Origin: Favolaschia claudopus
Taxonomy: Eukaryota > Basidiomycota > Agaricomycetes > Agaricales > Mycenaceae
Length of the DNA stretch: 64,000 nucleotides
Reading direction: 5' to 3'
Assembly: GCA_037176885.1 (NCBI GenBank)
Contig: JAWWNJ010000037.1
Span: 1,674,001-1,738,000, forward strand
Shown here: piece by piece, positions 1-22,749 of the stretch
Layout of the letters: the number at the start of each line of letters is the position of its first letter
How positions within the stretch are numbered: the first letter of the stretch is position 1
Translations under genes and position numbers: made by a program
The notes under the pieces: generated by a model
What the model saw: only the letters and a program-made list of their open reading frames with translations
Databases searched by the model: none
What the model was told of the DNA's origin: nothing

Positions 1-1696
1 ATCAATAGGAAGTCAGTACCTCTGTTGGTGACACTAAGGAGGGTCAAAGTGAGCTCCGAGCTGTTGACCGTAAAACCCATTACAGGAGAAAGGCATTATA
101 ATAATAGCCTACTGCAGTACTATGGATCTGTTCCATAACAGAACCCTCAGAAGAGTGACGAAGAGTCAAGTACTTGTGTACTACGGACTTAGATGAAGGT
201 CTACAAGGATGTAGGAGGCGCCGCGGGGGCTATCAGAGTCAACATCAGTCAAAAGACAGATGCCGCGGGCTGCCGACTATAAATAGACGGCTGGAACAGC
301 GGAAAGGGATCTCATACAGGAGATGCCGGTGCTAGGATCAGAAGGCAGAGTTATGGCAAGACATGAGGTCTTTGACAGGAGAGTTGATGATGTGATGCTG
401 AAGCCGGACAAGTGCGGCAACTTCATTAGAAATCTATTTCTATATTGGAGTCAGCGCGGATGACTTGGTGGCTTGATTAATTGGACAACAGACGAGCCTG
501 TGATATTGCGAGTGAATTGGAATGTCCCAAGAATAGTCTTAGGAGTTATTAGAGGCGTTGATGGCACCACCGGAAGGGTTGCCGCCAGTGACGGATTGAC
601 GGGATCACCAAGGATGGCGTTCCGCGGGCTTCCGCAATTCAGTGATTCAACCGTGGGAGTCATAATTGCTGACTTTCTACCGTGGGATCGACAAGCCAAG
701 AGGCTGCCGAAGGTCCGCCGGGACACCCAAATACCAATATACCATCTCTCTACTCAATTGGATCGACATTGCTTACTCTGTACTATTTATGTGATGTATT
801 TCTTGGCATTAGTATAAAAGGACCTGTATTTCTCGTTGAGCTGGAGGACATCGCGCTCAGTCTATTGGACAGCGTTGGTGAACTCAGGCAGCAACGTAGA
901 GGCATATATAAAGATATTGTCTACTCGTTTGTCTTAATAGAAATTGTGTTGAAGTTCAGTTCAAGTGTGAATCTAAGCATTGTTTCGAGAGTGTTCACCC
1001 GCGGAGGCTTTGCTTTCGAGTAGCTTTGTCGTGGCCTTAGTGTGCTAGGAACTGCCTGCCTCTACTGCCCGCGGACTGCCTATCTCATTGTAAGGATACG
1101 TGTGCTCGAGAGTGAACTAGTATCTCCCTGAGTCTGAGGAAGAGTGGAACTGTCCATCTGCTGAAGCATTGCGTTGGGACTGCTGGCGCATAACCGGAAG
1201 AGATCTGATTAGTCCTCATCTGAAAGGCTTGTGCTATATAAAGGAGTGTCAAAGGTTCCTGGAATTTGGAGGTTCAGGTCTATAGCGTAACTGGCGCTAT
1301 AAGAATTGTGCATTCTGCCGCGGAAACTGTCTGTGGCCATTGTTTCAATCTCGCCCTGATATTCAACTGCGTTGGGTATCTTGTATCCTACCGTTTATAG
1401 TTCCTATTTTTAGGAAAGGTCCGCGGACGGAATCACTTCCATCTACGGTGTGTGAGAGCGTGTTTTGTGCAAGGTTCTTACTTGCAAGTCGACTTATATC
1501 CTCGTCACTGTGACATCTGGATTTCGGATCGAGCCCCACGAACTCTTCGAGAGACATTTGAGTGTATCTTGTGGAGATATTTGTGTTGTAGTGTTGTGTG
1601 TGTTGGTTGATTGTGTTATATATATATTTTGGTGGTAGATTCTCTGCTGCGCTATATTTAGCACTTCAGTTGATATATTCAAGTGTCAGCGTTACA
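1..1696 (+). repeat. 5' LTR of element A (left end not defined)
   Basis: The LTR end is set by the dinucleotide CA at 1695-1696, followed two bases later by the PBS, the same spacing as in element B. No second copy lies in the window, so the left end cannot be fixed; B's LTRs are about 1.32 kb, so A's LTR probably starts between the window edge and about 400. Seven of the twelve CCGCGG palindromes of element A fall here. Confidence 0.6.
1235..1242 (+). promoter_or_regulatory. TATA-like box in LTR of element A
   Basis: TATATAAA lies about 450 bases before the LTR end, a reasonable place for the U3/R promoter. Other TATA-like words occur at about 279 and 905, so the assignment is a guess based on position. 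Confidence 0.35.
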
Positions 1697-1698
1697 TC

Positions 1699-1719
1699 TG
1701 GAGCCCACCGCGAGGGGTT
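1699..1719 (+). other. tRNA primer-binding site of element A
   Basis: The site begins TGGAGCCCACCGCGAG and starts two bases after the LTR end. The same 21 bases lie in reverse orientation at 16681-16701 in element B, also two bases from its LTR, after which the two sequences diverge. TGG at the start is the complement of a tRNA 3' CCA. The primer tRNA would end in UCCA (discriminator U); I cannot name it with certainty. Confidence 0.8.
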
Positions 1720-1790
1720 CGGTGGTAATTTGTTGATAAACAAAACGCGTTGCTGTAGTTGGGAGAGTCTAGAGAAGGGACTTTCCTGGG

Positions 1791-3659
1791 TTGTCGAGAA
1801 TTCCAGCCCAAACAAATCCTCGTACTAGAAAGACGTCGAGGAGAGGCAGACACCAGCGTAGCCCGTCTCCATTAAATACAGGAGCAGGTTCCAGGAGTTT
1901 GCTAGAGCAAGCCAGGGTTGCACTACAAGAACCCGCTCAAACGTCGACTTCAAGGAACAGTCTTATACCCGAGTCTGTAAATTGGGGACCCTCGACGTCT
2001 GGCAGAAAACCGCGTACGACCAAAAATTCCAGTACAGGACGGTCGTCTAGTTCGTCACCAGTTAAGAAGAGAAGGAGAGCGCGTTCCGCGGAAGTTATAA
2101 ATACTTCTGCAGCATTACCTTTTGAGGGACACGCAACCCACTCGGACGGCGAGCTATCTGATCATTTGAATCAGACCATCGAGGCTATTTCGAACTCCGT
2201 AGCCAAGATAAACCCCCCACAAACAAACACTATGGCTACCTACGACGAGATTGATAAGAGCAAGATCCCGGATATTTTTGGGAGACATAACCTGAAATTC
2301 GATGACGAAACAGGGGATTTGCCCAAGTATTTGGAAGGGATCGAAGATATCATCGCGAAGCAAGGAAAGCTTAGTGAGCAGAGCAAGAAGTGGATAGCAC
2401 ACCACTATGCGAACAGTAAAGTGCAGAAAGAATGGCAGGCTTTGCCCACCTATACGAATGGAACGTATGAAGAATGGAAGGCGGAATTGATGGATGCTTA
2501 TCCTGAAGTTCGTGCAGTAGAGAAAGGTTCCCGCGCGGGCTGGGCGTCTTTCTTGAAACAGTATACAGATCGTCCGGTGAGAATAGATGAGGAAGTTGAA
2601 TTTGCCAACTATTGTCGAAAGTTCCGCGGACGAGTTGCAGTGATGAACAAGGACCGAGAGATGCTCTCAAGGCGCGAGTTAGCGCAAGACTTTTTGAAAG
2701 GTATTCACCCTACCTTCAGGGAGACTCTTCGCAATATCGTGCTGGCCAGAAGTCCGACGGAACTTACTTCGTATCAGCGAGCAAAATCTGAATATGAAGC
2801 GCTGCCTGCGAACAAAGGAAAGGCCTATAAACCGGCCTACACTCACCCTGATGACCTGTACGAATGGGCAGACTTTGAGGAAATACTGAAGTCGTTGATC
2901 AAAAGTAATGACTCTATTTTCTTCACAACTCCCTCGGATACAAAGAGGAAGGCTGTTCTATTTTCGGGTAGTTCAGAGGGTGGAGATGAAGCTGCCAAGT
3001 TGAAGGCTAGATTGGAGAAGCTTGAGGCTGATTCCAAAGCCAGAGAGGAGAAAATTCTCCAGTCGAGTAAGGAGATTAAGGACAAAATGGAAGAGACCCT
3101 GGCTAATCATCTGGACAAATTTACGACCGACCAAAAACAGGTCATGTCCAAGATGCATGAAGCTTTGTCGAAAGGGACTTCCAATTATCCTAGTCGTCCT
3201 GTAGAAAGAAGAGAATACGGTGGTGACAGACCATCGTATGCACCGGATAGGCCGCCTCTTAGAGAAGGCAAGCCTACGGGCTGTTATTATTGTTGGGATC
3301 CTTCGCATTATGTTGCGGACTGCAAGCACAGAAGGGATGATATTACTGGGGGCCTGCTAATCCTGAAAGATGGGCGAATGTTCTTCTATGATGGAAAGGC
3401 TTTGCCGCGGGAACCCAAGAATAAGAGCTACATGACCAAAGTGCGGGATTACTATAACAATCGTACTCAGGTGTATTATAACCAAGAGGCGTTTGAGTAT
3501 TATTATGCTAGTGACCCCACTGCACCGGCCGCGGAGTCGTTTGCGAGTGAATCCAGGGAAGAGTCAGACTCTCCTGCCACCGCGGATAGACTGGACAGAA
3601 TCGAGGAGTCTGTTGCAAAGATAGCGCAGTTTATGGCGGCTCAGAAGGATTTTCAGTGA
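1791..3659 (+). CDS. gag: Gag polyprotein of element A
   Basis: Structural protein of the retrotransposon particle. The N-terminus is Ser/Arg/Lys rich with a basic run near residue 90. The middle is a retrotransposon gag domain (core LPTYTNGTYEEW alignable to LPEYTTGTYDDF of element B). A coiled-coil stretch of Lys/Glu/Leu lies near residues 400-470. A C-terminal zinc knuckle reads C-x2-C-x4-H-x4-C (CYYCWDPSHYVADC). The frame is open from 1773, but no ATG occurs before 2232, so either the first 147 codons use a non-AUG start (TTG at 1791 is the best candidate) or translation starts at 2232. Element B shows the same arrangement. Five CCGCGG words fall in this ORF in all three codon phases. Confidence 0.85.
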   Translation: MSRIPAQTNPRTRKTSRRGRHQRSPSPLNTGAGSRSLLEQARVALQEPAQTSTSRNSLIPESVNWGPSTSGRKPRTTKNSSTGRSSSSSPVKKRRRARSAEVINTSAALPFEGHATHSDGELSDHLNQTIEAISNSVAKINPPQTNTMATYDEIDKSKIPDIFGRHNLKFDDETGDLPKYLEGIEDIIAKQGKLSEQSKKWIAHHYANSKVQKEWQALPTYTNGTYEEWKAELMDAYPEVRAVEKGSRAGWASFLKQYTDRPVRIDEEVEFANYCRKFRGRVAVMNKDREMLSRRELAQDFLKGIHPTFRETLRNIVLARSPTELTSYQRAKSEYEALPANKGKAYKPAYTHPDDLYEWADFEEILKSLIKSNDSIFFTTPSDTKRKAVLFSGSSEGGDEAAKLKARLEKLEADSKAREEKILQSSKEIKDKMEETLANHLDKFTTDQKQVMSKMHEALSKGTSNYPSRPVERREYGGDRPSYAPDRPPLREGKPTGCYYCWDPSHYVADCKHRRDDITGGLLILKDGRMFFYDGKALPREPKNKSYMTKVRDYYNNRTQVYYNQEAFEYYYASDPTAPAAESFASESREESDSPATADRLDRIEESVAKIAQFMAAQKDFQ

Positions 3660-3664
3660 TTCCG

Positions 3665-4021
3665 ATGAGGGAGACTCGCTCGCGGAAAGCTCCTGAGGAT
3701 CCGAAAGCCAAAGACCGCGTTCCAGAAAAACAGAAAAACCAACAAAAAGAAACAGTAGCCGAGAGAGATAATGGGAAGGCACCCATTAAGCCAGCCAGAG
3801 AGAATAGAGTTGAAGTGTTGCTACCGAAGCGTTCTACTCAACCTACGAGGAAAGTCACAGTTGAAGAAGTCAGTGATTCTGAGGACGAGTCGGTTGGAGT
3901 CAGAAATAAAAATCAGAAGGAAGAACTTCCGTTCAAGGATGTGAAACCTCTGTCTGACCCTCCCGTACGACCCGCTGAAACGCTGACTATAGGGCAACTA
4001 TGGAAAACACCCAAGAAATGA
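3665..4021 (+). pseudogene. Protease-ORF N-terminus of element A, truncated
   Basis: The ORF opens with an ATG six bases after the gag stop (TGA 3657-3659). It is Lys/Arg/Glu/Pro rich like the first 100 residues of element B's protease ORF (13363-14580). Its own sequence ends at 3975; the last 15 codons before the stop are read from B's LTR and are not native. No protease motif is reached. Confidence 0.65.
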
Positions 4022-5303
4022 AAGGAATTAAATCCCTAATCAAATCTTAAATATAATCCTAACCACTATGAGATCGACGTGCGAGGTTCGGGGTTCCAGT
4101 CCAGTATAGACTGTGGCAATCCAACTATTCTAACACTCAAAATATACTAACTTAAGCTTTCGCGATTGCTGACTTTGTACAGAGAACGTCTATACGAGTC
4201 CTATGTTGACACAGGAAGTGTGGGTTTCAACAAGGGTTTGAGATGTAACTCTTCTCAAGAGGTTTAGGTGTTTAAGTCGCTTGTTAAGCCAATATATTCC
4301 ACGCGTAAGATGTCCGATAACTGTTTCACGCGTCCCGTAGGTCAAAAGTTCTTATAATTCCACGCGTAAGTTCCCAAAATTTCCAATATTCCACGCGTAC
4401 AATTCAAGAGATGATCCAACAGACAATATATTTGACGAAACAAACCAAAGAAACAAATAAGCTTCTGGAGTTTATCTCGAATGGAGTCCAACGTCTAGTT
4501 GTTCACGAAGCCGACACTGGCTTGACGCTCACAGCTAGAGGAGGGAATCCACTAGAGTACCAGTACAGGAAACGATGCCTTTTATACCTTTCACTAATAA
4601 ATAATAAGAGACCGAACACTTGACAAACGGGTATAATGTGAGAGAAACTAGGGCCCGCTATGCCCTCGCCCTATCCTTGGCGGCCAGAACAGGAAATAGA
4701 TCAAAGGTTCATTCAATCCAAGTCCTTATCCCGATCATTATGTTATGACAGTGGGCCGCAGCGGCCCAATCAATATTGCCCAACTTGGCAGTAATACCCT
4801 TGGTATCATTGTCCCTCTTCGGACCTTGCTCCGTGATCGTAATACGGCGGCAGCCAACTCGGCATGACGTGTAGTTCCTTTGTAGGAATATTCTACTTCC
4901 GCAAATCCCTCGCAATTGGTTTATAGAATTATTCGTGAAAGCCTCTTGCCTCCAGGAAACACTCCTTCTGGCCTTTCGGCAGGTTCTTATAAGTCCCAAG
5001 TTATATCCCACTCATTCTGCCTTTGGTCGGAACACAGGGTGACTCCCAATCCTATTCCGGATGGTTAGAGACCTATCGTGATAGGTCTGTTCTGGAATAT
5101 TATAACTTCCACGCTATACCAGCGCAGTCGTAGACAGCACCAGACCTCCCACTTAGTGTATAATCCTTTAACTGGCCGCTCAGGCAAACGCCAGTCCTCA
5201 TACGAGCGTATTCCCGTGGTATTTAATGTATTACGCTTTTAATACAATAGCACTTGAACTGAAAATGAATAAATTCAGCCCTGGCCCAATACCGGGTCTA
5301 TCA
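3976..5303 (-). repeat. 3' LTR of element B
   Basis: 1328 bp, bounded by TGAAACG on the left and GGGTCTATCA on the right (plus strand); a near-identical copy is at 16704-18019. Differences seen include a segment near 4790-4810 that is 13 bases longer here, one extra G near 4570, and a few substitutions. It contains one TCGCGA (4160) and a decayed-looking partner CCTATCGTGATAGG near 5078. It directly abuts the polypurine tract at 5304. Confidence 0.93.
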
Positions 5304-5338
5304 TCTCCCCTTTTCATAAATTGAGTGTCCCCACTCAA
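5304..5338 (-). other. 3' polypurine tract with upstream hairpin, LTR-proximal copy
   Basis: On the minus strand a hairpin with stem TTGAGTG/CACTCAA and loop GGGA is followed by TTTATGAAAAGGGGAGA, which abuts the TG of the 3' LTR. This is where plus-strand DNA synthesis would be primed. The plus-strand word ctccccttttcataaatt recurs exactly at 9152-9169, next to a hairpin with the same loop but a different stem sequence. Confidence 0.85.
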
Positions 5339-5700
5339 CACTTGGTCCTTATTTTGCGCCCTCTTTGCGCTATCAAAAGTGTTTCCCACAGTTATTCGGC
5401 TAACTCGGCTATCGCGACCGGTGTGGTCCCGCGAGATTTGCTTCCGTTGATAGACAGCGGGATCCTCGCTTAGATCCCGAAAACACTTATAAGTGTTCAT
5501 TATTGCCTATACTGACGCCTACAACCGCCAACTGTTGTGTTCTGAGTGTGCGGAGTTTGCGCGAGCAAAGTGGGTCCGTGCGCATCAATAAATCCACGTG
5601 ATTTGTGTTTGTTTTGCCGCAGCTTTTCTCCCACTTTCTCTGCTCTTCCCACCACAACCACCTATCGCGAATACTCAAACTACAGCTCTAGCTCACTGTT

Positions 5701-8700
5701 ATGGGTACGTGGCTGGCTTATATTTGTAGTTTAGAGTCTCACAGGTTGCCTTGGGCTGTTTTACAGCTCAAGTCACTAAGAACCCCACCCTCACCGCTGA
5801 CATCGCCTTCGCTCTCTTTCACGAACGCAAGAACTCCGTTTTTCTGGAGCAGATGTCGGTGGCTCAGTACCGCCGTGCTGTGACGAAGGGAGAGCATATT
5901 CTCCCCTACAAGCTCACTGAGGACGACTTCAAGCACCCTGCTTGCCGACCCCACATCCCGCTCGACAACACCGAAGTCATCCACAAGTACGACTTCTCCG
6001 AGGAAGACAAACATTGTCTCTTCCTGATCCAACACCCCATCACCATGCGTTGGCTTCAACTCCTGCGCAAGCCTTGGCGTTATCTCGGAGTTGACCCCGA
6101 GTGGATCGCCCATCTCCTGAAAGGTTGGCGACCCGTCTCAGTACGCTATAATGATTGCTCTCTACTCGTTCTTTACTGACTCTAGACTCTTTCTAGGTCG
6201 TTGTGGCCCGCTTCTACGACGAATTCAAGGCCACCCCCGTCTTCGACCGCGTTCTTATTGGGATTTCCGAGCTCGCCAAGGCTTTCAAGGCTAAGTACCC
6301 TCGACAATGGAAGGAACCGTACCCTATCCTGCCACAACAATTGGCTAACAAGGACCCCCGGGATGTGCGTTTCGCTTTTCCCTTTTTATCGCAATCATTA
6401 TTGACCCTCTTTGTCAGTTTCTTCCTGTTTCGATGCAGTTTCAGCTCCCCGACACTGTGGAGTTCTTCTCCAACTACCCGCGCGCATCTTTCGCGCCTTC
6501 TCTTTTCGAGGATATGGTCCTCCGCCGGATCGACAGTGCGGACCTCATCAACCTCATCGAGACTTGTGGTCGCGTTGCAAACGAGGAAGTCGGTCACTCT
6601 GCGCGCACCTTTGTCCTCCCAGAGGAGTACATTCTCCCTTCTCGAAACATCATTTCCAAGGCCGTTGCCTCGTTGGTACGTGAAATTTTTGCCCTGTCGA
6701 GCTTTTGCGATTGCTAATCGCACTTGTTTTAGTCCGACTTGAACGATTCCATGGGCGAGGACCGGTTGTTCATGGATGCTATCCTGAACTCCGTCCAACT
6801 CTTCGTTAGTCTCATCCCTGAGAACAAACGAAACGCCACCTGGGCCGTCGTTTTGCCCAAGCCGCAGAACCCTGGCTATCTCGTTCCAAAGGACTTTAAA
6901 GTTCCTCGAGGAGACCTTCCCGACCCCGAGCCCTTCGCTCTGTGGGACGAGTTCCCCTATCGCGACCCCGCTTTGGTCTCTTGGCGCCTCCACAACAAAG
7001 CGTCGACGGCTCAAGCTATAGCGACTGCAACTCCAGCGCCTTCGACTCCGGCCGCACCGCCTGCACCTGTGGTCAAGCTTCCCACTCCGCGCGCCGGTGG
7101 TTCCACCCGTGACTTCATGGCTGGCTTCGCAGCTGGCGCTGCTTCGCGTGGTTCTGACGATGGTTTGGAGAGCGAGGACCCTATCACGATTGGTGCGACA
7201 GCCCCTGCTGAAGCGCCCAAGGTAATTTATATATTCCTTTTATAAGTCCTCGCTAACCCTTATCATTTAGGACAATTCGACGCCTCAAACCCCCAAGGCT
7301 GGTCCTTCCGCGGCTGTCGCGACTGAGACTCCATCTACGGCTGGTCTTCGTCGAAGCGCGCGTGGCGCGTCCAAGGTAAGACTCTTGTCTTAACTTCGTT
7401 TTCCCACTTCTAACTACTTTTCTTTTAGCCCAGCCTCGACCTTGAGGCTGCGGCTACAGGTGTCACCGTGGAAGAGTTGGAGATCGCCTCTCGCACTCGT
7501 TCCAAGCGCAAGCGTGCCGACGAGGAGGCTTCCAAGCCTGCAGCTGAGGACGAACAAGATAGCGGCCTTAGCGACGGCGAGCCCGAGGTCTCCCCACCTC
7601 ACAAACGGTCGAAAGACAGCAATCGTGATAGCGAAGAGCCTTCGCCTTCAAAGAGTAAGGGCAAGGGTAAGGACAAGGACAAGTCCGTCGCGTCCACCCC
7701 CGCTCCTGCTGAAGTTCGTACTGCCCGCGGAGCCTCACAGGCTCACAAGGACGATCCGTACGAGGCGGAAGGCTTCGAGCCAACCACATTCGATGTCCGT
7801 GCAGCAAAGGAAGGTCTGGGGATCCTTCCCAAGAGCTTCCAAGCCGCCCTTCTCAAGGGTACCAGCGTTCTGGTAAGTTGTTCTCTATTTAATTCATCGC
7901 TCCTGTCCATTCTGAGCAATCGCGATAGCGTCTTTTGGGCTGCGGTAATTGCATGATTCGCAATCGCAAGTGCCGACGCCAAAACGGGCATACCCGCTGC
8001 GATGCCTGCGTCCAGAGCGGTATGTCTCGATGCTCGGATAGTTTCTCCATTCCCGAGTATATCCAAGTCATCAACATCTTGGAGCCTCTTACTGTCTTCT
8101 CCGACAAGAGTAAGTCTCCTTGTATTCTTTCTATCTTGCAGTCCTGACCCGCTCCTTTACAGGTTGGAATTCTGCTTTTAACGAGCTTCGCGATGCCCAC
8201 TACTCTCAGGTCCTCTGTGATCGTCAAGTGGCACTCGCGAATGCTCGTCTTCTCCGTGCGCGCAACAATTTGCGTGCTCTCATGAATGGTTCCAAGGTGG
8301 CTTTCAACGGCAAGCTCATTCCTGGGATCACTTCTGTCGCGGAGAAGGAGGTGGAGTTCTACTCCAAACTTTTCGAGACTGCTCGCGACGAATCCGAACG
8401 CGAATTTTACATGCCCGATGGTTCTCGTGCCGACGAGTACTATCTCGAGTATGATTCCCAGTACGAGGGCTCGCAGGGACAGTCGGCCATGGACGGGGAT
8501 GCAGATGGTGAAGGGGAAGAGGTACGGGTTGTCTTGGCTGACGAGGCGGAGGCTCCGAGGGAGCCTTCTCCTATGCAAGAGGACGCTCCTCCCGTTCGTG
8601 CTGTCTCGCTCGAGGCGGTCGCTGAGCCAACTCCTGGTGAGGAGGCTATCACTACTGCTGAGCCTGCCACTGCGGTGATCTCTCTCGACGCAGCTATCGC

Positions 8701-8758
8701 TGCTGATGAGGCCAGTCGCAGTGAGTTCGTCGAAGGTTCTTCTCGCGATGGGGCTTGA
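5701..8758 (+). CDS. Antisense cargo gene of element B: Zn2Cys6-like protein, 9 exons
   Basis: Spliced gene inside element B on the opposite strand. Exons by splice consensus: 5701-5704, 5767-6140, 6197-6364, 6439-6675, 6733-7221, 7271-7375, 7429-7872, 7929-8109, 8163-8758, giving 865 codons with every junction in frame. Introns are 49-74 nt and GT...AG. Residues 1-380 are a globular region of unknown family rich in Trp/Leu/Pro. Residues 380-600 are low-complexity with a basic, NLS-like stretch (KRKR). Residues 612-642 contain C-x2-C-x6-C-x8-C-x2-C-x7-C with Arg/Lys between cysteines 2 and 3, matching the fungal Zn(II)2Cys6 pattern. A helical region follows, then an acidic Glu/Ala-rich tail. 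Introns survive because the gene is antisense to the retrotransposon transcript. It has its own TCGCGA sites. Inferred role: a DNA-binding regulator acting on the element or host; the function is not proven. Confidence 0.82.
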
Positions 8759-9151
8759 ATTCAGTAAGTTCTTCCTTACTATTCCCCTTATCTTAACTGA
8801 CTCTTTCAGCTAGATATAAATGACGCATGGTATAGGATGGACTTTCACTACTGCTTGGACTGATGCGCGTCCCGATTGCTTTTGAACATTGTATATCACG
8901 AAATCCCTGTACATATCTTTCGATATTGCTGTACTGCTTGATTTCTTTTGATATTTGTCTTAGCTATCGTTTCTTGGACTTTTCGATACACGGGCTCGAT
9001 TTGTATATATATACTGCCCCAATTGTATCAACGCTGCCTCTCTCGATGAGGTTTTCTCCAATCGCGAATGCCTGAATTCTAAGACTTTTTAGAATTCAAC
9101 TCCGTCCATTCTTTCCACTTGTCGCGCAATCACTCTCGATTGCACCTATTC

Positions 9152-9188
9152 CTCCCCTTTTCATAAATTTTAACTGTCCCCAGTTAAA
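9152..9188 (-). other. Second hairpin/polypurine-tract cassette (pol-proximal)
   Basis: Lies about 27-60 bases past the pol stop. On the minus strand it reads stem TTTAACTG/CAGTTAAA with loop GGGA, then TTTATGAAAAGGGGAG. The polypurine tract and loop match the cassette at 5304-5338, while the stem has changed on both arms so that pairing is kept. It may be the ancestral 3' PPT, with the cargo placed between the two copies, or it may act as an internal PPT. Confidence 0.75.
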
Positions 9189-9214
9189 TCCTTTATGACG
9201 GAGTTCAATTATTT

Positions 9215-12200
9215 TCACTGTGACCCGGTTTTCGCGACTTTGACTCGAGTGGAACGTCTCGGAGCATCTTTGTAAGATACCTCCTTCCTTATTTCGTCCA
9301 AGTCCAAGTCAGGAGCTTCTTCGCTCTCTTCATCATCGCTCTCTGAGTCGTCTTCATCGCTATCGGTACCTTTCGCGATTGCTCCAGGTGCCTTCAGGTG
9401 GACTTTGTGAAATTGTAGGTCCTTCCCAACGAATGGATCTTCCTCTAAGTCATCATTAACCATGTCTTCTAACGTTTCTCGCGATAAATCGATCAAGTCG
9501 AGAATATTAGGTGGTAATTCAACTCTTTGGCGCTGTTCGAACGGTACCACTCTAAATTGAGCGATCCGACTCTGTAGCATAGATCCATCCATTTCACATA
9601 GAAGATAGGCTCCATTCCTAGTCCTCCTTATAACAATGTATGGTCCCAAATATCTAGGATCCATTTTATTATTGAGAGACTCCTCCGTCTCAGTATTTCT
9701 CGCGAGAACCAAGTCTCCTGGCTGGAAGTTGTAATCCTTTATTGTGTGCTTATGCGCATCCACATACTTCCGTACAAGCCTTCGCTTCTCCTCGCTGACT
9801 CTAATTCTCATCTCCTCGATGTGTTGGGAGTGTTTCGCGAGAGCTTTTGCTCGTAAACCAATTAACTCGGCTGTCGTGATAGGTTCTCCCGGATATTCTA
9901 CTAGCCAAGTAGCTTCCTCTATGTCCAACGGAAGTATAGGGTGAGCTCCAGATACTGCGAAGAAGGGTGAACAACCCATTCCCCTGCGTACTGTAATTCG
10001 ATCTGCCCATAATACTTGATGGAAGAACCAAAACCACCGCTTTACATCTCCTCCGGTAGCCTTGTACAGAGATTGCCTCATGTCCCAATGCCCTCTTTCT
10101 ACTGTTCCGTTGGCTTGTGAGTTATACGGAGAGATCTTAATGCCTCTGATTCCATATTTCGCACTTAACCATTTCAAAGCAGCAACAAAGGCAGGTCCAT
10201 TATCTGTGACAATAGTCTCCGGACAGCCCCATCGACAGATGATGTCCTCTAGCAAGAATTTGCCAATAGCCTCCGCGTTCTCGGACTTGATAGGTCGCCC
10301 TTCGACGTATCGCGATAGCGCATCTCTGGCCGCAACAACGCTTCGATAACCATTCGAGATTGCTCCCATTACCATAGCATCCGCATGAATCTTTTGGAAG
10401 AGACTTGGTGTATGTGTGGGCGTAGGAGGGATTCGTAGCAAAGTAGTCTGCCTGTGCTGGCATAGCTTACAGGTGCCAATGAACCACTTTATGTCTCGCT
10501 CCATTTCGGGCCACCAGAACCTAAGTTCTATAAGAGACTTGGTTGCGTAGATGCCTTTATGGCCAAGAGAGTTGTGCGAAGCTCTCATCATATACATCCG
10601 ATGGTCTTTCGCGACAACTAACTTGTGCATGGAACCTTCGCCTTTTCGATATAGCTTCCCTTCTTTCGTCAAGAAGAAATATCTGGCGAATTTCAAGAAC
10701 CTCTTGAACTCTTTATCCTCCATCCCAGCAGGTCTGACTAAGGGGTCCTTGAACCAAAGTTTCAGGACTTCAATCCTTTCGTCTTGCGCTATTCCCGCAC
10801 CTGTACGATGGTCTTCCGGATAAGGTTCTCGTTTGTCCACATCATCCCTGAACTCTTGTCCTGGAAGTAAAGGCTCTGTGGGTTCCATAATCTGGACATA
10901 CTGAGGCACTACAAGCCCTTCTTGCTTGTAGACTTCGAGTATCCGTGCAGAAACGACCGACTCTTGGCCTATCGTGACAGCTAAATCTTCTTCGAAATCG
11001 CTGTAGTTTCCTGCCGTACCAGCCATAGATTGCAAATAGCCGCCTCTTTCGTCTATTTCATCTTTAAACTCATCAAAGTCTAATGGCTGTTGACTGACAT
11101 AGTCCCAATCCTCGTGGTTTTCCGGGATAGGATTTTCGTCGAGTCCATCCTCATTATTGGGGTAGACTTCGTCTCCCGGTTGAGGCTCTCTTCGCGATAG
11201 GCCGTCTGGAGGGAAGGTAGCTCCCTTGACATGCTTCAATTTGAAGTGGAACATAAGGATTTGTTCGATCCAACGATTTATAGTAGCGTTGGGACCCATT
11301 CCTGGGTTATTCAACATTCCTTTGATATAGAGGGCATCAGTCTCGACTACTAGTCTTCGACATCCTAGAAGCCAATATTGCATGGCCTCCAGTGCTCTCT
11401 TTAATCCGTACAGTTCTCGCTTTGGTTGAGAGAAGCGGGACTCTCTTCGGTTGAGAGTGATCGACGCGAACTTCGCGTAGTGCTTCTTCAACTTGTCGAT
11501 AATATCTATTTGATATATCTGGATGCCTACTGCCATCCAAGAAGTATCGACTGCAAGGACTATGTCCGTGTCCCAATCATAATTGAGCGGCCTTAAGGCA
11601 GGACAATTCTTGATTGCTGTCTTTAATGCCTCCATCGCTTCCTCTTGCTCTGGACCCCAAACGAACTCTTCGTCGTTTCTACACAATTTCTGTATTGGTC
11701 TGCATATGTCCCCATACTTTGGTATAAACATTCTAAGCACACCAACGGTTCCCAAGAACTGTCTGACTCCTGAGACATCCTTCAATGGCCCCCACCGCAC
11801 AATAACTCCAATGCGGTCAGTACTGGGACGGCGGCCTTCATACGAGCAGATATGTCCGACTACAGGGAATACATCCCAGCAAAGCACAGACTTGGCTCCA
11901 GAAAACGTTCCTCCGCAATACTTAATCCTTTGAACTACTCTGTTCAAATTCATGAAGTGTTCCCATATAAATCTCCTGATTCCTTTGTTATCGCGAATGG
12001 TCTCGTAAGTACCATCTGCCTTTTGATATCGCGTCCCAGGTCCTCTTATAGGAACATCATCAATATAAGGGATGGTAACGTGAGGAATCTCGTCTCGGAG
12101 AATAAAGGTGACATCGTCGTGAAAGATAGGCACCGAATTTGTCCATCCTTGAGGAAGTTTAACTAATCTTAGAGCGCCATAAGGCGTCTGAAAGGTAGTA

Positions 12201-13363
12201 TAGTCTCTTGACCCTTCCGCTATGTCTCTGTGATCATAACCGGAGTACAAATCCAAGCTTCCGCCACAAGCTCTCCCAGCAAAGTGGTTTGCAAGTTCGT
12301 CCGTGGCCGGAGGAACTCCAGAATGAGCTATCGTGACTGCGTTCAGAGGCTCTAAGGCGTGAACAAGACGGATGCTCTTGCCATCTTTCTTCACAACACC
12401 GAAGAACTTACTTCGGTAAGAAGCATTAGAAGGTTCATAGACTCCTGCGTCTATCTTCTTCTTAATAACTTTGCAAAATTCCTCTAATTGACCTCTCGGG
12501 ATAGGTATGCTTCGTTCGACCCAAGTCTCGTGTTCCACAACCGGAAACTCGACTGGAGGGAAGAAATCGTGTCTGAAGCTCCCTCTCTCGGAGTCATCCC
12601 AAGCGAATGCAGCTTCCTGCCTCATCATGAAATCATGCATTAATTTTCGCTCTTCAGGCCAGAGAAAATCGCCATTGTGTAGTTCGTCTATAATTTTCTT
12701 TCGCTCTTCGGTATATTTGCCAGTGGGTTTGAAGTCATCGGGAGTAGGATTTAACTCTGGCATTTCTGCGAGAGGGTCACCAGTGATTTCCCTTTTAATT
12801 CTGAACTGTTCAGGAAGCTCCGTATACACGGGTCTCACTTTAAGTCCAACAGGTTTGTACTTCTTCCCCGCAAACACCGATACAGGATCCTCTTCACCTG
12901 TCGCGATAGGTTCCTCCTCTGAAATCTCTTGACTTAGAGTCGGATGAATAAACTCGGCAGAGTCACAACAAGGGCAATGTACTCCTTGAGTTAGGACATG
13001 AGTTGTCCGGACCTCTCTTCTGGTGTACAAGGGCTCGGGAGGACAGAATTTCTTCTCTTCTGCTGGTTCCTCCTCTTCGCCTTCCTTAATCGGACCATCT
13101 GCCACACTCCAAGTGAAGACTCCGTACTTCTTCCTCTTCACTGGCGTCTTCTTAGACTTTTCGCGAAATTCATTGAAGAGCACTCTTGCCTTCTTATCCT
13201 TCCGGATATTTCGCGATTCCTTCGAGGCTGCCACATACGCCTCTAACACCTCTGTTTCAGTGAAAGCCAACCCTTTCGGCTTATAATAACCCTCAATCTC
13301 CAACTCTTTGCTTTCATTAAAGCCGAATTTTAACGCCAACTCTCCTCGTTCGTGCAACTGCAT
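9215..13363 (-). CDS. pol: Pol polyprotein of element B (RT, RNase H, integrase)
   Basis: 1382 residues. Reverse transcriptase in the middle third has the catalytic box YIDDV near residue 431. RNase H follows with AVDTS, a conserved Glu and ETDA. The integrase zinc finger is H-H-C-C (GHKGIY ... CKLCQH), then the core has the catalytic triad HADAM, TDNGPAF and NGTVERG, with about 35 residues between the last two. A GPY/F-like module (LGPYIVI) follows, then a very acidic C-terminus. No chromodomain is visible. The N-terminal 300 residues lack a recognised domain; a Cys pair (CPCC) lies near residue 120. The ATG overlaps the stop of the protease ORF (TAATG). The frame is uninterrupted, so the element may be active. 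Twelve TCGCGA sites fall here, in all three codon phases. Confidence 0.95.
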   Translation of the reverse strand: MQLHERGELALKFGFNESKELEIEGYYKPKGLAFTETEVLEAYVAASKESRNIRKDKKARVLFNEFREKSKKTPVKRKKYGVFTWSVADGPIKEGEEEEPAEEKKFCPPEPLYTRREVRTTHVLTQGVHCPCCDSAEFIHPTLSQEISEEEPIATGEEDPVSVFAGKKYKPVGLKVRPVYTELPEQFRIKREITGDPLAEMPELNPTPDDFKPTGKYTEERKKIIDELHNGDFLWPEERKLMHDFMMRQEAAFAWDDSERGSFRHDFFPPVEFPVVEHETWVERSIPIPRGQLEEFCKVIKKKIDAGVYEPSNASYRSKFFGVVKKDGKSIRLVHALEPLNAVTIAHSGVPPATDELANHFAGRACGGSLDLYSGYDHRDIAEGSRDYTTFQTPYGALRLVKLPQGWTNSVPIFHDDVTFILRDEIPHVTIPYIDDVPIRGPGTRYQKADGTYETIRDNKGIRRFIWEHFMNLNRVVQRIKYCGGTFSGAKSVLCWDVFPVVGHICSYEGRRPSTDRIGVIVRWGPLKDVSGVRQFLGTVGVLRMFIPKYGDICRPIQKLCRNDEEFVWGPEQEEAMEALKTAIKNCPALRPLNYDWDTDIVLAVDTSWMAVGIQIYQIDIIDKLKKHYAKFASITLNRRESRFSQPKRELYGLKRALEAMQYWLLGCRRLVVETDALYIKGMLNNPGMGPNATINRWIEQILMFHFKLKHVKGATFPPDGLSRREPQPGDEVYPNNEDGLDENPIPENHEDWDYVSQQPLDFDEFKDEIDERGGYLQSMAGTAGNYSDFEEDLAVTIGQESVVSARILEVYKQEGLVVPQYVQIMEPTEPLLPGQEFRDDVDKREPYPEDHRTGAGIAQDERIEVLKLWFKDPLVRPAGMEDKEFKRFLKFARYFFLTKEGKLYRKGEGSMHKLVVAKDHRMYMMRASHNSLGHKGIYATKSLIELRFWWPEMERDIKWFIGTCKLCQHRQTTLLRIPPTPTHTPSLFQKIHADAMVMGAISNGYRSVVAARDALSRYVEGRPIKSENAEAIGKFLLEDIICRWGCPETIVTDNGPAFVAALKWLSAKYGIRGIKISPYNSQANGTVERGHWDMRQSLYKATGGDVKRWFWFFHQVLWADRITVRRGMGCSPFFAVSGAHPILPLDIEEATWLVEYPGEPITTAELIGLRAKALAKHSQHIEEMRIRVSEEKRRLVRKYVDAHKHTIKDYNFQPGDLVLARNTETEESLNNKMDPRYLGPYIVIRRTRNGAYLLCEMDGSMLQSRIAQFRVVPFEQRQRVELPPNILDLIDLSRETLEDMVNDDLEEDPFVGKDLQFHKVHLKAPGAIAKGTDSDEDDSESDDEESEEAPDLDLDEIRKEVSYKDAPRRSTRVKVAKTGSQ

Positions 13364-14580
13364 TAAGTCCTCGAAGCTTGGCGAAAACCCTGCTTTGCTT
13401 CTGGGTCAGCAGTCTTTTCCGGACTCCCATCTTCCTCCTCAACGGTTACAGAGGGCTTTCGCGATTGGTCGCTTTCACGCCTCCTCTTAGTTGTAGTGAT
13501 TGTACAACGTTTTCCCGTATTAGGATCTTTGATGGTGATGGTCTGGGACTCATCCTTATGATTATTAACCTGGCTTTCAGTTAGAACCTCGAAAGGCCTT
13601 CCCAAAAGTACTTTGTACGCTGGTCCTTTAATAATATGAACCTGCAAGTACACAGTCATGTCTCCAAATTTGAATGGGACATTCCTGGCCAAGCCAACTG
13701 CTCTCTCTACAGAATTATTGGCACTCTGCATCCAAACGCGAACATCCGGGTCCCAAGTTAATTTCGACTCTACCGCTTGTTCTAGCGACATAGATACGAT
13801 TTGGGATCCTGAGTCCAAGACACATTCAACGCGTCCTTGTTTATTAATGGATGGAGACACCGTTCTGAGATCAGCTGAGTCTCTCCCAACAGCCGCGCTT
13901 CTATGGTCATAGACCTGCCTAGGCTTCTCATCCGGTCCTAAGGATTCCAGATATTGAAGGTAAGGGTCAGGTATCGCGACTGCCCCCACCGGCATATCTT
14001 CCGTGTCAATCGTGCTAACGAAGACTGAAGACACCCCTGGAAGGTCATCCAGATCGAGTGCGTCATACTCCAGTTCATCCTCATCATCATCCTGGAACGG
14101 TAAGTCCGAAATCTCTTCTTCGAACATTACTTGCTTCGCTCCAGGGGCCTTGGTTCGTCTAACCTTGGTAAAGTCCCTCCGAAGAGTTTCTCTTACTTCA
14201 GGCGACACACCAGCCAACTCTTTGACACCCAGAGTAATTTCCGAGTTCAAAATTTTATTCGCGACAGCCCTTCCAAGGCCATCCTTCTGCACAGGTGCTT
14301 TCAATTGGTAAGCCTTCTCCTCTTGAGAATCAGCCCTTACTTCTACAACCTCTGGTTGGTCCGCTTGCCGATTAACCACCGGGTTTACCTTTCGGTAAGG
14401 CAGTTCGACACCTATCGCGATTTCTCGCCTCGGGCGCGTTTCAACCCTCTCAGTCTTCTGAGAATTATCTGCCTCTTCTCCAGGCTTTGCTCTCCAATCA
14501 GGACTGCTGTCCGCGGTGTTTCTAGTATTACGGTCCTCAGGAGGCTTTTCTAAGTTCTTAGTCCGCGACTTCGCCTCCAT
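13363..14580 (-). CDS. Protease ORF of element B
   Basis: 405 residues between gag and pol. The N-terminal 240 residues are charged and Pro-rich, like the truncated counterpart in element A. The C-terminal half contains a retropepsin-like motif VLDSGSQIVSM (catalytic Asp-Ser-Gly) followed by beta-rich sequence, the expected aspartic protease. The ATG (14578-14580) lies 11 bases after the gag stop; the stop shares one base with the pol start. This suggests termination-reinitiation rather than the frameshift or single ORF common in gypsy elements. Confidence 0.82.
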   Translation of the reverse strand: MEAKSRTKNLEKPPEDRNTRNTADSSPDWRAKPGEEADNSQKTERVETRPRREIAIGVELPYRKVNPVVNRQADQPEVVEVRADSQEEKAYQLKAPVQKDGLGRAVANKILNSEITLGVKELAGVSPEVRETLRRDFTKVRRTKAPGAKQVMFEEEISDLPFQDDDEDELEYDALDLDDLPGVSSVFVSTIDTEDMPVGAVAIPDPYLQYLESLGPDEKPRQVYDHRSAAVGRDSADLRTVSPSINKQGRVECVLDSGSQIVSMSLEQAVESKLTWDPDVRVWMQSANNSVERAVGLARNVPFKFGDMTVYLQVHIIKGPAYKVLLGRPFEVLTESQVNNHKDESQTITIKDPNTGKRCTITTTKRRRESDQSRKPSVTVEEEDGSPEKTADPEAKQGFRQASRT

Positions 14581-14591
14581 CCCTGGACTAC

Positions 14592-16505
14592 TTAGAAATT
14601 TGGCGGAGTGCCACCACCCTGTCTAGCATTATTCCTGGTGGCTGCAACAAACTGCTCCTGGGTTTGCGGATCCGACATGCTGAGACCCCTCATTAATAAG
14701 GTGTGAACAACATTATTCACTTCCGCTTGCCCAACGACTGGTTGAGCAGTCGCGACAGGTTGCATCTGAGCCATATAAGTGGGATGAACCACTTGTTGTT
14801 GTTGTTGAACTAGATTGTATTGCTCAGCTCTTCTGAGTTTTACTTTCAGCGACTTAATTTCGTCGGCTTGGAGTTCCGGGTCATAGGAAGGCCCTTCCGT
14901 CTCGCCGTTGTAATAACTGTCAACTGTATTCCAGTTCTGACTGGCGGACTTATTCTTCCAGTAGTTTTCAACTCTGGTTTTCTGAGTCCCACTTCCCGAA
15001 GGAATCCAGCCGCCATCTCCGAGCTTATGCTTTCCTCCTTCGACGGTCAAATATCCTTTTTGGATATGCTCGTCTTTGTAGGGGCATTCGCGAGAGTAGT
15101 GACCGGGCTCTTCGCAATAGAAGCAATCTCTTTCGCTTCTCTTCTCTGATCTATCTTGACCAGAGGGCTTTTGGCTAGGCCCTTGGGAGTTGTAAGCGAA
15201 GCTCGAGCGATTATAATCGCGATCGCGGTCCCTATCACGACTGAAGTGCGGAGGAGGATCTCTCATGAACTGCTGCATGGTTTTCATCATTTCATTGTGC
15301 CTCTCTTCGTACGTTCTTTGTGTCAAGACATGCTGGTCCCGCAACTGAGCTATGGCACCTTCCATAGTCTCGAACTTCTCCTCAAAGGGTTCGGATTTTA
15401 CTAAAATCCTAGGTAGTCCTAAGTTGGTCCCAGGAACCACTTTCGGTTCCTGTTCAATCACAACACTAGGGGACTCATGCTGGTTAGCAGCTAGAGTCTC
15501 TGCCAATTTTATAAGCTCTGGGAGCTTAATGGGATCTTCCTTTCTGGAATCATTCGCAGCTGTCGCGTCTGCTCCAGCCGCGGCCGCTCCTCCGAGATTC
15601 GGGAACTGTGCCCTCATCAAGACAGAGTTCGCGATTGCTATCTCGAGCGTGTTTTTGAATCCTACATCCAGAGTCTCTAAGTACTGCTTACACGCAACCT
15701 GGTTGGTTAACAACGCAGGCTCGGTATACAACTTTTTGACTTCGGTGTAGTATTCGATTCCAAATCGACGAAGTTTTCCCTCCTCGTAAACGGTAATCCC
15801 TTTATTACGTTTACAGAGCTTCTTAAGATTTTCAACAGTACCGGTGCGGTCCGTATTAATCTCAGGGTAGCTCTTATAAACCGTCTTCAGGAAATCATCA
15901 TAAGTCCCTGTAGTGTACTCCGGCAGTGCTCTCCACTGCTCCTTCTTCTTTGCACCAAGGTAATTGGTCAAATGCTCTTTTCGTGATTGGTCGGTAGTGA
16001 TACCAGCCAACTCGAAGATTTGCCCAACATGATCTACGAAGGTTTTTAGGTCCTCATAGTCATCCGTGGTGAACTTGGGAGCGTTTGGATCCCAAGCATA
16101 AGGAATTTTGAAGCTCGCAACCCTAGGGTTTTGAGCGTTTTGTGCGTTTGGGTCAGCCATCGCGTTTGACGATGATTGAGATGAAGGTAAGGTTTGCGAA
16201 GTTTGTGTAGCAGAAGGAGAGTCTGGAGGAATGGTTTGTTCCTCTTCAACTTCCTCCTCTATGGTAGGTTGTGTGTTTAGATCCGACAGAGTATTCGTGA
16301 TGGCTTTTTGCTTTCCTCTGTACGCTGTAACCCGTTCCTTAGCTTTGGCTCGAGATTGTGATCTCCCTGCCTCAGTAGGAGTACGCTTTTTCTTCCTAGG
16401 AAGAGGATCTAAGTCTGTTGGTGTTTTTAACCGACTAGACCGGCGTGGTTTAGGTTTCGCGAAAGATGTGGAAGCAAGTTCGCCGTCCGCAGATATTTCT
16501 GACAA
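14592..16505 (-). CDS. gag: Gag polyprotein of element B
   Basis: The N-terminal part is Ser/Thr/Pro rich with basic motifs (RRSSRLK, PRKKKR). The gag capsid-like domain is in the middle (FKIPYAWDPNAPKF onward). A C-terminal zinc knuckle reads CFYCEEPGHYSREC (C-x2-C-x4-H-x4-C), and a Gln run lies near the end. The frame is open from 16529, but the first ATG is at 16160 (MADPNAQ); the region before it is coding-like and resembles element A's. TTG at 16505 sits in a context (TTGTC) shared with A. Stop is TAA at 14592-14594. Confidence 0.87.
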   Translation of the reverse strand: MSEISADGELASTSFAKPKPRRSSRLKTPTDLDPLPRKKKRTPTEAGRSQSRAKAKERVTAYRGKQKAITNTLSDLNTQPTIEEEVEEEQTIPPDSPSATQTSQTLPSSQSSSNAMADPNAQNAQNPRVASFKIPYAWDPNAPKFTTDDYEDLKTFVDHVGQIFELAGITTDQSRKEHLTNYLGAKKKEQWRALPEYTTGTYDDFLKTVYKSYPEINTDRTGTVENLKKLCKRNKGITVYEEGKLRRFGIEYYTEVKKLYTEPALLTNQVACKQYLETLDVGFKNTLEIAIANSVLMRAQFPNLGGAAAAGADATAANDSRKEDPIKLPELIKLAETLAANQHESPSVVIEQEPKVVPGTNLGLPRILVKSEPFEEKFETMEGAIAQLRDQHVLTQRTYEERHNEMMKTMQQFMRDPPPHFSRDRDRDRDYNRSSFAYNSQGPSQKPSGQDRSEKRSERDCFYCEEPGHYSRECPYKDEHIQKGYLTVEGGKHKLGDGGWIPSGSGTQKTRVENYWKNKSASQNWNTVDSYYNGETEGPSYDPELQADEIKSLKVKLRRAEQYNLVQQQQQVVHPTYMAQMQPVATAQPVVGQAEVNNVVHTLLMRGLSMSDPQTQEQFVAATRNNARQGGGTPPNF

Positions 16506-16680
16506 GTCTGGTTGTACCGAAATGTTGACCTAAGTCAACGGCACTTTTAACGAATAATTCGTTCTTCTCGGATGTAAGTCCAAGGTATAATCCTGTATAG
16601 GAAGGTAGAGATATTTCTATACGCAACAAGTCCAAACTTGGCTTGAGATTTCTACTTTGAAGTATAGAGATAGATGGATG

Positions 16681-16701
16681 AACCCCTCGCGGTGGGCTCC
16701 A
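16681..16701 (-). other. tRNA primer-binding site of element B
   Basis: Reverse complement of the site at 1699-1719, 21 identical bases, two bases from the inner LTR edge at 16704. It marks the start of minus-strand DNA synthesis and confirms the element's orientation. Confidence 0.82.
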
Positions 16702-16703
16702 GA

Positions 16704-18019
16704 TGAAACGCTGACTATAGGGCAACTATGGAAAACACCCAAGAAATGAAAGGAATTAAATCCCTAATCAAATCTTAAATATAATCCTAACCACTATGAG
16801 ATCGACGTGCGAGGTTCGGGGTTCCAGTCCAGTATAGACTGTGGCAATCCAACTATTCTAACACTCAAAATATACTAACTTAAGCTTTCGCGATTGCTGA
16901 CTTTGTACAGAGAACGTCTATACGAGTCCTATGTTGACACAGGAAGTGTGGGTTTCAACAAGGGTTTGAGATGTAACTCTTCTCAAGAGGTTTAGGTGTT
17001 TAAGTCGCTTGTTAAGCCAATATATTCCACGCGTAAGATGTCCGATAACTGTTTCACGCGTCCCGTAGGTCAAAAGTTCTTATAATTCCACGCGTAAGTT
17101 CCCAAAATTTCCAATATTCCACGCGTACAATTCAAGAGATGATCCAACAGACAATATATTTGACGAAACAAACCAAAGAAACAAATAAGCTTCTGGAGTT
17201 TATCTCGAATGGAGTCCAACGTCTAGTTGTTCACGAAGCCGACACTGGCTTGACGCTCACAGCTAGAGGAGGGAATCCACTAGAGTACCAGTACAGAAAC
17301 GATGCCTTTTATACCTTTCACTAATAAATAATAAGAGACCGAACACTTGACAAACGGGTATAATGTGAGAGAAACTAGGGCCCGCTATGCCCTCGCCCTA
17401 TCCTTGGCGGCCAGAACAGGAAATAGATCAAAGGTTCATTCAATCCAAGTCCTTATCCCGATCATTATGTTATGACAGTGGGCCGCAGCGGCCCAATCAA
17501 TATTGCCCAACTTGGCATTAATGAGTGTCCCTCTTCGGACCGTGCTCCTTGATCGTAATACGGCGGCAGCCAACTCGGCATGACGTGTAGTTCCTTTGTA
17601 GGAATATTCTACTTCCGCAAATCCCTCGCAATTGGTTTATAGAATTATTCGTGAAAGCCTCTTGCCTCCAGGAAACACTCCTTCTGGCCTTTCGGCAGGT
17701 TCTTATAAGTCCCAAGTTATATCCCACTCATTGTGCCTTTGGTCGGAACACAGGGTGACTCCCAATCCTATTCCGGATGGTTAGAGACCTATCGTGATAG
17801 GTCTGTTCTGGAGTATTATAACTTCCACGCTATACCAGCGCAGTCGTAGACAGTGCCAGACCTCCCACTTAGTGTATAATCCTTTAACTGGCCGCTCAGG
17901 CAAACGCCAGTCCTCATACGAGCGTATTCCCGTGGTATTTAATGTATTACGCTTTTAATACAATAGCACTTGAACTGAAAATGAATAAATTCAGCCCTGG
18001 CCCAATACCGGGTCTATCA
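16704..18019 (-). repeat. 5' LTR of element B
   Basis: 1316 bp with TG...CA ends, near-identical to 3976-5303. One TCGCGA at 16888 corresponds to the one at 4160. The right edge abuts the interrupted gag frame of element C. Confidence 0.93.
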
Positions 18020-22640: not shown

Positions 22641-22749
22641 AATTCTATCTAGATAGCTAGAAGTTCATAGTTCGTGGTATTGTATTTTTGCTCTGCACAC
22701 AAATTGTGCTAGATAATTCAAATAGATGCTATTGCTGGTTATCTGAAGT

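Follow-up and report, generated by a model that had tools for sequence, protein, structure and literature searches.

Family-specific palindromic dyads and probable antisense zinc-cluster genes in Gypsy retrotransposons of Favolaschia claudopus

We analyzed a window of 64,000 nucleotides from the basidiomycete Favolaschia claudopus (C37:1674001-1738000; genome total, 264.6 Mb), the beginning of which holds two Ty3/Gypsy-like retroelements, A and B, each saturated with a palindromic hexamer, CCGCGG in A and TCGCGA in B. The TCGCGA words form the core of a sharply bounded 16-bp dyad, and B carries, on the strand opposite to gag-pol, a fast-diverging gene with a module that is likely a zinc-cluster DNA-binding domain. 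Judging from sequence comparison, we consider it roughly an even call that the palindromes are sites of this element-encoded protein, with sequence-specific anti-silencing as their likeliest use.

Palindromic words and the 16-bp dyad

A recount reproduced exactly the numbers given in a preceding sequence-only reading of this DNA, namely 12 CCGCGG and 1 TCGCGA in A and 33 TCGCGA and 4 CCGCGG in B; the remaining 45,981 bases of the window contain 15 TCGCGA and 11 CCGCGG. In both elements, the palindrome is the top-ranked 6-mer relative to dinucleotide expectation (A, 12 observed vs 0.46 expected; B with one long terminal repeat (LTR) only, 32 vs 3.45). Genome-wide, TCGCGA occurs 76,728 times (1 per 3.4 kb; 1.21 times the reversed-word control of 63,389) and CCGCGG 60,847 times (1 per 4.3 kb; 0.89 times the control of 68,711), in agreement with the earlier chance estimate of about 1 per 4 kb each. 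The claim that codon usage does not account for the words also held, as synonymous shuffles fall far below the observed counts. The gag-pol coding sequences (CDS) of B hold 21 TCGCGA, compared with a mean of 2.7 when codons are kept (max 8, n=300) and 3.3 when codons and dinucleotides are kept (max 6, n=60). The copy of family A on C223 holds 22 CCGCGG, one of them in an overlap of open reading frames (ORFs) and hence counted twice, compared with 1.9 (max 6, n=300) and 2.6 (max 7, n=60). Genome-wide enrichment and shuffle counts equal to those observed were both looked for, and neither was found; shuffles, nulls, and genome counts reject enrichment across the genome, codon use, and composition at the dinucleotide or order-2 Markov level as causes.

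The words recur in other copies of the elements. TCGCGA leads all 6-mers in every one of 16 B pol pieces (5.2 kb, with 8-15 sites apiece), as does CCGCGG in 5 of 5 A pieces, and 27 CCGCGG lie within the first 10 kb of the A copy on C223. On C1, a 30.9-kb stretch of tandem A copies, within which A gag and exon I (see below) were located, carries 88 CCGCGG, compared with 4 in the 23.4 kb before it and 8 in the 28.8 kb after it (measured up to the last place listed), so that the density rises and falls with the borders of element A. The load per element is 33-46 sites, about 1 per 0.3-0.4 kb. Of the 33 sites of B, 21 are in gag-pol CDS (5, 12, and 4 in phases 0, 1, and 2), 6 in exons of the antisense gene and 1 in one of its introns, and 3 in spacers, while each LTR has 1, which bears out the earlier description of words in the LTR, all frames, the antisense gene, and its intron; the B LTR, however, is the site-poorest part of the element (0.76 per kb), whereas the A LTR has 4.1 per kb (7 in 1.7 kb).

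Most B sites had been thought to share the wider sequence TTTCGCGATTGCT or TATCGCGATAG, but only 4 of 33 match exactly (forward strand, by eye); the wider context holds only statistically, as a dyad. In both B and B2, its sister family, the site reads AGC-NN-YCGCGR-NN-GCT, with Y preferentially T in B and C in B2. Counted from the centre, the flanks of TCGCGA in B (64 half-sites) have A at -8 in 32, G at -7 in 31, C at -6 in 36, and T or A at -5 in 34 and 20, respectively; those of YCGCGR in B2 (92 half-sites) have A at -8 in 54, G at -7 in 49, C at -6 in 45, and T at -5 and at -4 in 53 each. From -15 to -9, chi-square values in both families are at most 8.8, under the 0.1% mark of 16.3, which gives the dyad sharp edges. 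The sites of A have weaker, CTTCCGCGGAAG-like flanks. None of the tandem arrays of the window contains a site, and this, together with the bounded symmetric dyad, led us to reject tandem duplication as the source of the sites; judging by its shape, such a profile is what a dimeric DNA-binding protein would leave, unlike that of duplicated DNA. Sites are spaced more evenly than at random in A (coefficient of variation (cv) 0.67, with 0.9% of random sets as even; second copy, 0.75 and 3.5%) and in B2 (0.69 and 0.4%).

Distribution and turnover of the words among families

A search with B pol returned 1959 candidates, 61 of which were scored and grouped by identity over the region from reverse transcriptase (RT) to integrase: 16 belong to B (99-100%), 8 to B2 (88%), and 19 to B3 (81-82%), with 7 more at 71-73% and 11 at 70%. 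The pol proteins of B and B2 are 84% identical. The pol tree pairs B with B2 as sisters and puts B3 next to them; the F families branch between this group and A, whose branch is long (the root was placed for drawing only). The pol of A, taken from copies elsewhere, is 58% identical to that of B; the two elements are related, as had been proposed, but not closely. The gag of a further family, A2, is 58-59% identical to A gag at the amino acid level. Longer DNA was examined for one copy each of A, B2, B3, F183, F21, F49, F34, and F94 (10 kb for each F element) and for 3 kb of A2.

A strong word is found in 4 of the 10 families examined, A, A2, B, and B2. A2 has 9 CCGCGG in 3 kb, again as the first 6-mer (codon-shuffle mean 1.2, max 5, n=500), and B2 has 16 CCGCGG vs 2.5 expected, plus a general excess of YCGCGR. 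The signal in B3 is weak (8 CGCGAC in gag-pol vs shuffle maxima of 5, n=300, and 4, n=60), and neither this excess nor that of CGCG is accompanied by any palindrome above the null. No dyad exceeds the null maximum in F183, F21, F49, F34, or three host stretches, the best dyad of F49 (z 4.3) being barely over the 95% point of 4.2, and CGCG in the three F families tested is at, below, or close to the shuffle mean. F94 has 12 ACTn5AGT in 10 kb vs 2.3 expected (z 5.8 vs a null maximum of 4.8), with no structure around it, and 10 GTTnAAC vs 2.7 expected, 9 of them with A or T in the middle; both are possible weak words of F94. The expectation that each family would own a palindrome did not survive, since CCGCGG is common to A, A2, and B2, and 5 of the 10 families (F183, F21, F49, F34, and F94) have no comparably clear word. 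What stands is a family-specific address over the whole element, which reflects neither codon use nor genome-wide enrichment, takes the form of a 16-bp dyad in B and B2, and is present in other copies and in A2; a private word in every family does not.

Individual positions turn over. Over gag and protease, A and A2 have 3 positions in common, whereas 7 of 10 are private to A and 6 of 9 to A2. At the 12 B pol sites, a CGCG core is present in B2 at 5, in B3 at 2, and in F94, F183, and F21 at 0; the five B2 cores read CCGCGA, CCGCGG, CCGCGA, TCGCGA, and TCGCGG, so that the core letter differs between the sisters at some positions. The conservation of position across copies that had been predicted is therefore partial, covering the coinciding sites of A and A2 and fewer than half of the B sites in B2. 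Because positions turn over, what seems to be maintained is the density of sites and not where they lie.

Antisense zinc-cluster genes and candidate readers

The antisense gene of B, called gene 2, was modeled with splice sites inferred from the sequence. Its exon 7 encodes a candidate reader with the pattern C-x2-C-x6-C-x8-C-x2-C-x7-C. Fungal Zn2Cys6 (GAL4-type) domains follow the spacing C-x2-C-x6-C-x5..12-C-x2-C-x6..8-C. A six-frame scan of nine elements from nine families found 12 such modules, at least one in each, all opposite to the gag-pol strand and with all six cysteines invariant; they fit the Zn2Cys6 spacing except in the first loop of one A module (x8) and one B3 module (x7). At E up to 10, the profile built from the 12 modules hit 11 distinct PDB sequences, with zinc-cluster proteins in the lead (PUT3, 3e-5; HAP1, 0.03; LEU3, 0.3; RSC30, 0.4), and the modules are likely GAL4-type Zn2Cys6 DNA binders. 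The 835-aa (amino acid) protein had no homologues at E 0.001 among 7993 scored, and Pfam found only Zn_clus in its spliced form, the VANC domains DUF1985 and DUF287 being absent. An AlphaFold model of exon 7 alone reached pLDDT 54 and was not used. Pieces of gene 2 are 30-42% identical between B and B2, compared with 84% for pol; the antisense proteins diverge much faster than pol.

The positions of these features are collected in Table 1.

Table 1. Features of elements A and B in the window, and examples of A exon II elsewhere in the genome
Feature	Position	Strand	Basis or remarks
Element A, 5' part of Ty3/Gypsy-like element	1..3975	+	Word counts, LTR and gag matches to other copies
A, LTR sequence	1-1696	+	98.8% to A LTR elsewhere
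A, gag ORF	1773-3659	+	gag copies elsewhere
A, start of next ORF	from 3590	+	
A, CCGCGG (12)	221, 263, 622, 999, 1069, 1318, 1421, 2086, 2624, 3405, 3529, 3580		
Element B, Gypsy element	3976..18019	-	Both LTRs, gag-pol on - strand, 33 TCGCGA
B, 3' LTR	3976..5303	-	One TCGCGA at 4160
B, spacer (LTR to antisense gene)	5412..5670		TCGCGA at 5412, 5665; third spacer site 9062
B, antisense gene (gene 2), 8-exon model, 835 aa	5853..8758	+	Open spliced frame, GT-AG introns
Gene 2, exons	5853-6140, 6197-6364, 6439-6675, 6733-7221, 7271-7375, 7429-7872, 7929-8109, 8163-8758	+	
Gene 2, TCGCGA	6960, 7317, 8188, 8235, 8383, 8743 (exons); 7920 (intron)		7920 at inferred 3' splice site
Gene 2, exon 7, Zn2Cys6-type module, candidate reader	7929..8109	+	CGNCMIRNRKCRRQNGHTRCDACVQSGMSRC
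B, pol ORF (RT, RNase H, integrase), 1396 aa	9215..13405	-	TCGCGA 9232, 9373, 9479, 9700, 9835, 10310, 10609, 11192, 11991, 12901, 13161, 13211
B, protease ORF	13363..14622	-	TCGCGA 13459, 13974, 14259, 14415
B, gag ORF with CCHC zinc knuckle	14592..16529	-	TCGCGA 14750, 15088, 15217, 15629, 16457
B, 5' LTR	16704..18019	-	One TCGCGA at 16888
A exon II, examples	C223:211876-212769, C161:233393-234313, C143:358491-359357		

A second antisense gene, gene 1, occurs in related families. None of the 146 gene-1 matches listed lies near the 16 B pol copies (by eye), and the B element of the window yielded a single module; as far as seen, B is without gene 1, which leaves the module of gene 2 as the only one found in B. 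Among 65 places listed, this module is 97-100% identical in 14 and 85-93% in 32; in copies resembling B2, identity falls to 41-44% (48% in one partial match), and four places with poor E-values reach 31-32%, at least three of these being next to B3 copies or gene-1 matches. B and B2, with 84% identical pol, have Zn modules of 41-43% identity and different words. B-like modules (88-90%) also occur on C7, C11, C24, C26, and C28 without a listed pol, where a pol below 70% is possible. TCGCGATTGCT is found four times within 10 kb in each of 5 of 5 B-like-module copies (C1-C34 range) without a listed B-like pol, compared with 6 and 5 in B, 2 and 2 in B2, 0 in 6 B3 copies, 0 in 6 F copies, and 0 in 15 of 16 A copies, with one in the other; genome-wide, there are 424 occurrences vs 46 for the control. 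The five places without a listed B-like pol (C7:3176516, C11:2932096, C24:1857222, C26:1833557, and C28:328972) all have gene-1 matches (68-70%) close by, and are possibly elements that keep antisense genes without pol.

Family A has two module exons. Exon I, which adjoins pol, is present in 58 of 61 pol copies (96-100% identical), at 93-100% to the C223 copy in 56 and at 71 and 76% in the other two. Of the 61 copies, 48 have exon II in place, at 95-100% in 9, 51-60% in 7, and 27-33% in 32, the Zn part of this exon itself dropping to about 30%; the other 13 have none listed in place. The tandem copies on C1 have an exon II of the 28-29% class and the same CCGCGG load. Exon II varies while the load is constant, and CCGCGG is therefore not read by exon II, exon I being the more suitable candidate. 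Such extreme variation in exon II suggests cassettes that recombine under diversifying selection. At C223:213224-214920, the A copy on that contig continues into an inverted A 3' end with an inverted LTR.

Independent indications come from the site itself. CCGCGG is the core of TCCGCGGA, present 7 times in 10 kb of A and 8 times in 10 kb of B2, and TCCGCGGA (PDRE) is the classical yeast site of the zinc-cluster activators Pdr1/Pdr3 (PMC11111045; here and below, cited papers are represented by excerpts). Protein class and site type agree by this separate route, and the antisense proteins may recognize the sites directly. A zinc-cluster protein encoded opposite gag-pol would, as a dimer, read a dyad with a CGCG core, the half-sites being everted CGG in A, A2, and B2 and CGA in B; the B gene-2 protein, or its module, would bind AGCNNTCGCGANNGCT rather than the B2/A dyad. 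With 33-46 sites, the protein could cover a whole integrated copy and all sister copies while mostly ignoring the host genome, and such coating would most likely keep the family active and free of CpG methylation or heterochromatin, by analogy with VANC proteins on VANDAL transposons. A fuller version, which we put forward tentatively and with somewhat less confidence than site recognition with anti-silencing, is that Mycenaceae Gypsy elements possess a self-recognition system of their own, in which an antisense zinc-cluster protein is paired with a matching dyad written into synonymous positions, reader and address change together at family splits (TCGCGA in B, YCGCGR in B2, CCGCGG in A), and a second, hypervariable zinc-cluster gene is swapped between near-identical copies as in an arms race.

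Several observations weigh against these proposals. The Pfam profile Zn_clus (PF00172) matched 6 of 10 modules at E up to 10, all scores being under the cutoff of 21 bits (best, 0.0074 and 16.8 bits; whole 835-aa protein, 11 bits). F183, F21, F49, F34, and F94 have a module without a clear word, and a module is therefore insufficient. In A, the hypervariable exon coexists with an unchanged word, so that the role of reader would fall to the conserved exon I alone. B2 retains TCGCGA at 9 of 73 CGCG sites, which indicates a shift from B and no clean switch, and the spacing of B sites is not significantly even (cv 0.78, 11%). Sites of B pol are no better kept in B2 (46/71 bases) than pol as a whole (3085/4164). 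CpG decay, scored as substitutions only, and thus silent on present methylation state, is faster inside than outside sites in B (30/446 vs 127/3364) and slower in B2 (3/208 vs 44/1366), B3 (5/192 vs 57/1530), and A (1/110 vs 14/777); given this inconsistency between families, protection of site CpGs from decay is not claimed.

Competing explanations and known systems

Zinc-cluster proteins are usually transcription activators, and the foremost alternative, which we regard as unlikely though not negligible, is that the element's own protein binds the sites for another purpose, such as control of transcription on both strands, packaging or nuclear retention of complementary DNA (cDNA), or tethering of integrations to old copies. 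It rests on the same sequence evidence as anti-silencing, and the A LTR is indeed rich in sites. The sites are nevertheless mostly coding and extend along the whole element, with only one per LTR in B, unlike promoter sites, and the B/A junction is no clean insertion at a site. Less probable still is a host DNA-binding protein, zinc-cluster or RSC-like, that reads the words and is either exploited by the elements or used to silence them. CCG-CGG sites are bound by host zinc-cluster proteins in yeast (PMC11111045), and RSC30 is among the profile matches. A silencing site should be purged, yet the word accumulated independently in A2, and a single factor fails to explain the core shift between B and B2 with a common outer AGC.

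We give very little credence to the words being a by-product of mutation or composition (CGCG words left behind by decay of CpGs, by biased replication, or by short duplications): each site does hold two CpGs and CpG content varies strongly along the window, but codon, dinucleotide, and order-2 Markov nulls all fail, the dyad is sharp-edged with no site in a tandem array, and in the three F families tested CGCG stays near or below the shuffle mean. It is just as improbable that the words are targets of sequence-specific DNA modification by an element or host methyltransferase or a restriction-like mark, targets which hexamer palindromes resemble and an idea that the earlier reading had voiced as a "mark", as the information covers 16 positions, in part degenerate, where a modification target would be a hexamer, and Pfam found no methyltransferase or nuclease domain in the B antisense pieces and the spliced protein (other families were scanned for modules only).

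The closest known counterpart to anti-silencing through element-encoded zinc-cluster proteins is the VANC/VANDAL system of Arabidopsis, in which the word YAGTATTAY is dense in VANDAL21 and expression of VANC21 removes methylation there (PMC5735166). According to the excerpts, both systems combine a fast-evolving accessory protein encoded by the element with a short word enriched in its own family, the words differ between related families, and density matters (PMC5735166, PMC10398659). A word enriched in its own family and rare elsewhere is found in A, A2, B, and B2, although A, A2, and B2 share one, and gene 2 outpaces pol as VANC-type accessory proteins outpace transposition proteins. VANDAL words are described as lying mostly in non-coding DNA and tandem repeats (PMC5735166), whereas here the sites are mostly coding and private ones arose outside tandem repeats; here, too, the carriers are fungal LTR retrotransposons, the protein is of the zinc-cluster class, the site is a palindromic dyad, and anti-silencing is what we infer.

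Other parallels are partial. Antisense ORFs of the plant Gypsy elements Retand and Grande likewise lie between pol and the 3' LTR, possibly encode a DNA binder, and have a suggested regulatory role; in the excerpts, these have a TRP28 domain and family-specific tandem repeats, whereas here a word is spread through the element (PMC11963269, PMC7264820). Pdr1/Pdr3 and other fungal Zn2Cys6 activators share the module class and the CCG-CGG everted repeat that forms the core of A, A2, and B2 sites, but regulate host promoters, whereas here the gene is a transposon's own and the sites run all through the transposon (PMC11111045). Fungal DNA transposons with TET/JBP dioxygenase genes are also mushroom transposons with a gene thought to aid escape from methylation silencing; the gene there encodes an enzyme, the carriers are DNA transposons, and the abstract mentions no sequence-specific address (PMC12730594). 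None of the literature hits examined, a subset of all hits, described antisense zinc-cluster genes in Gypsy elements, which does not establish absence from print. The LTR element Boty of the fungus Botrytis reportedly carries an antisense gene, brtn.

B itself has the full complement of a Ty3/Gypsy LTR retrotransposon, with two LTRs (98.5% identical), gag with CCHC, protease, and RT-RNase H-integrase in order. No target site duplication was seen by eye (flanks CCCGC left, GCGGA right). A adjoins B on the left only (3975/3976), the right flank (18019/18020) being no A sequence, and B is perhaps a recombinant copy or lies at a deletion junction. Insertion of B into an A site (flanks CCCGC/GCGG) was rejected, as intact A reads differently and the right flank is not A. 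Each B LTR has four ACGCGT within about 100 bp (4301-4398 and 17029-17126), three of the four in CCACGCGTA context in the first LTR, the one examined; we take this cluster to resemble MBF/MCB cell-cycle boxes. Beyond B, a 453-bp inverted repeat (98%) at 19553-23202, its arms separated by 2.7 kb, encloses a very CpG-poor block (6 CG in 20001-22000). Homologues of pol number 967 at E 1e-30 among 7990 scored, one of the 120 listed naming Mycena chlorophos, and named homologues of pol and of B2 antisense gene 1 stem from Mycena and Favolaschia; no relatives of pol were found among viral contigs (pol profile) or plasmids (pol DNA).

Coding sequence can evidently hold dozens of candidate regulatory sites through synonymous choice. 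If recognition of the dyads by the antisense proteins is real, B, B2, and A would provide natural protein-site pairs whose co-evolution becomes testable by module swaps, and the finding would suggest why large Gypsy elements carry antisense genes, a question described as open in plants too (PMC7264820, PMC11963269). Transposon self-recognition, worked out for Arabidopsis DNA transposons, would then have arisen independently in fungal retrotransposons, through a well-understood DNA-binding domain unrelated to VANC.

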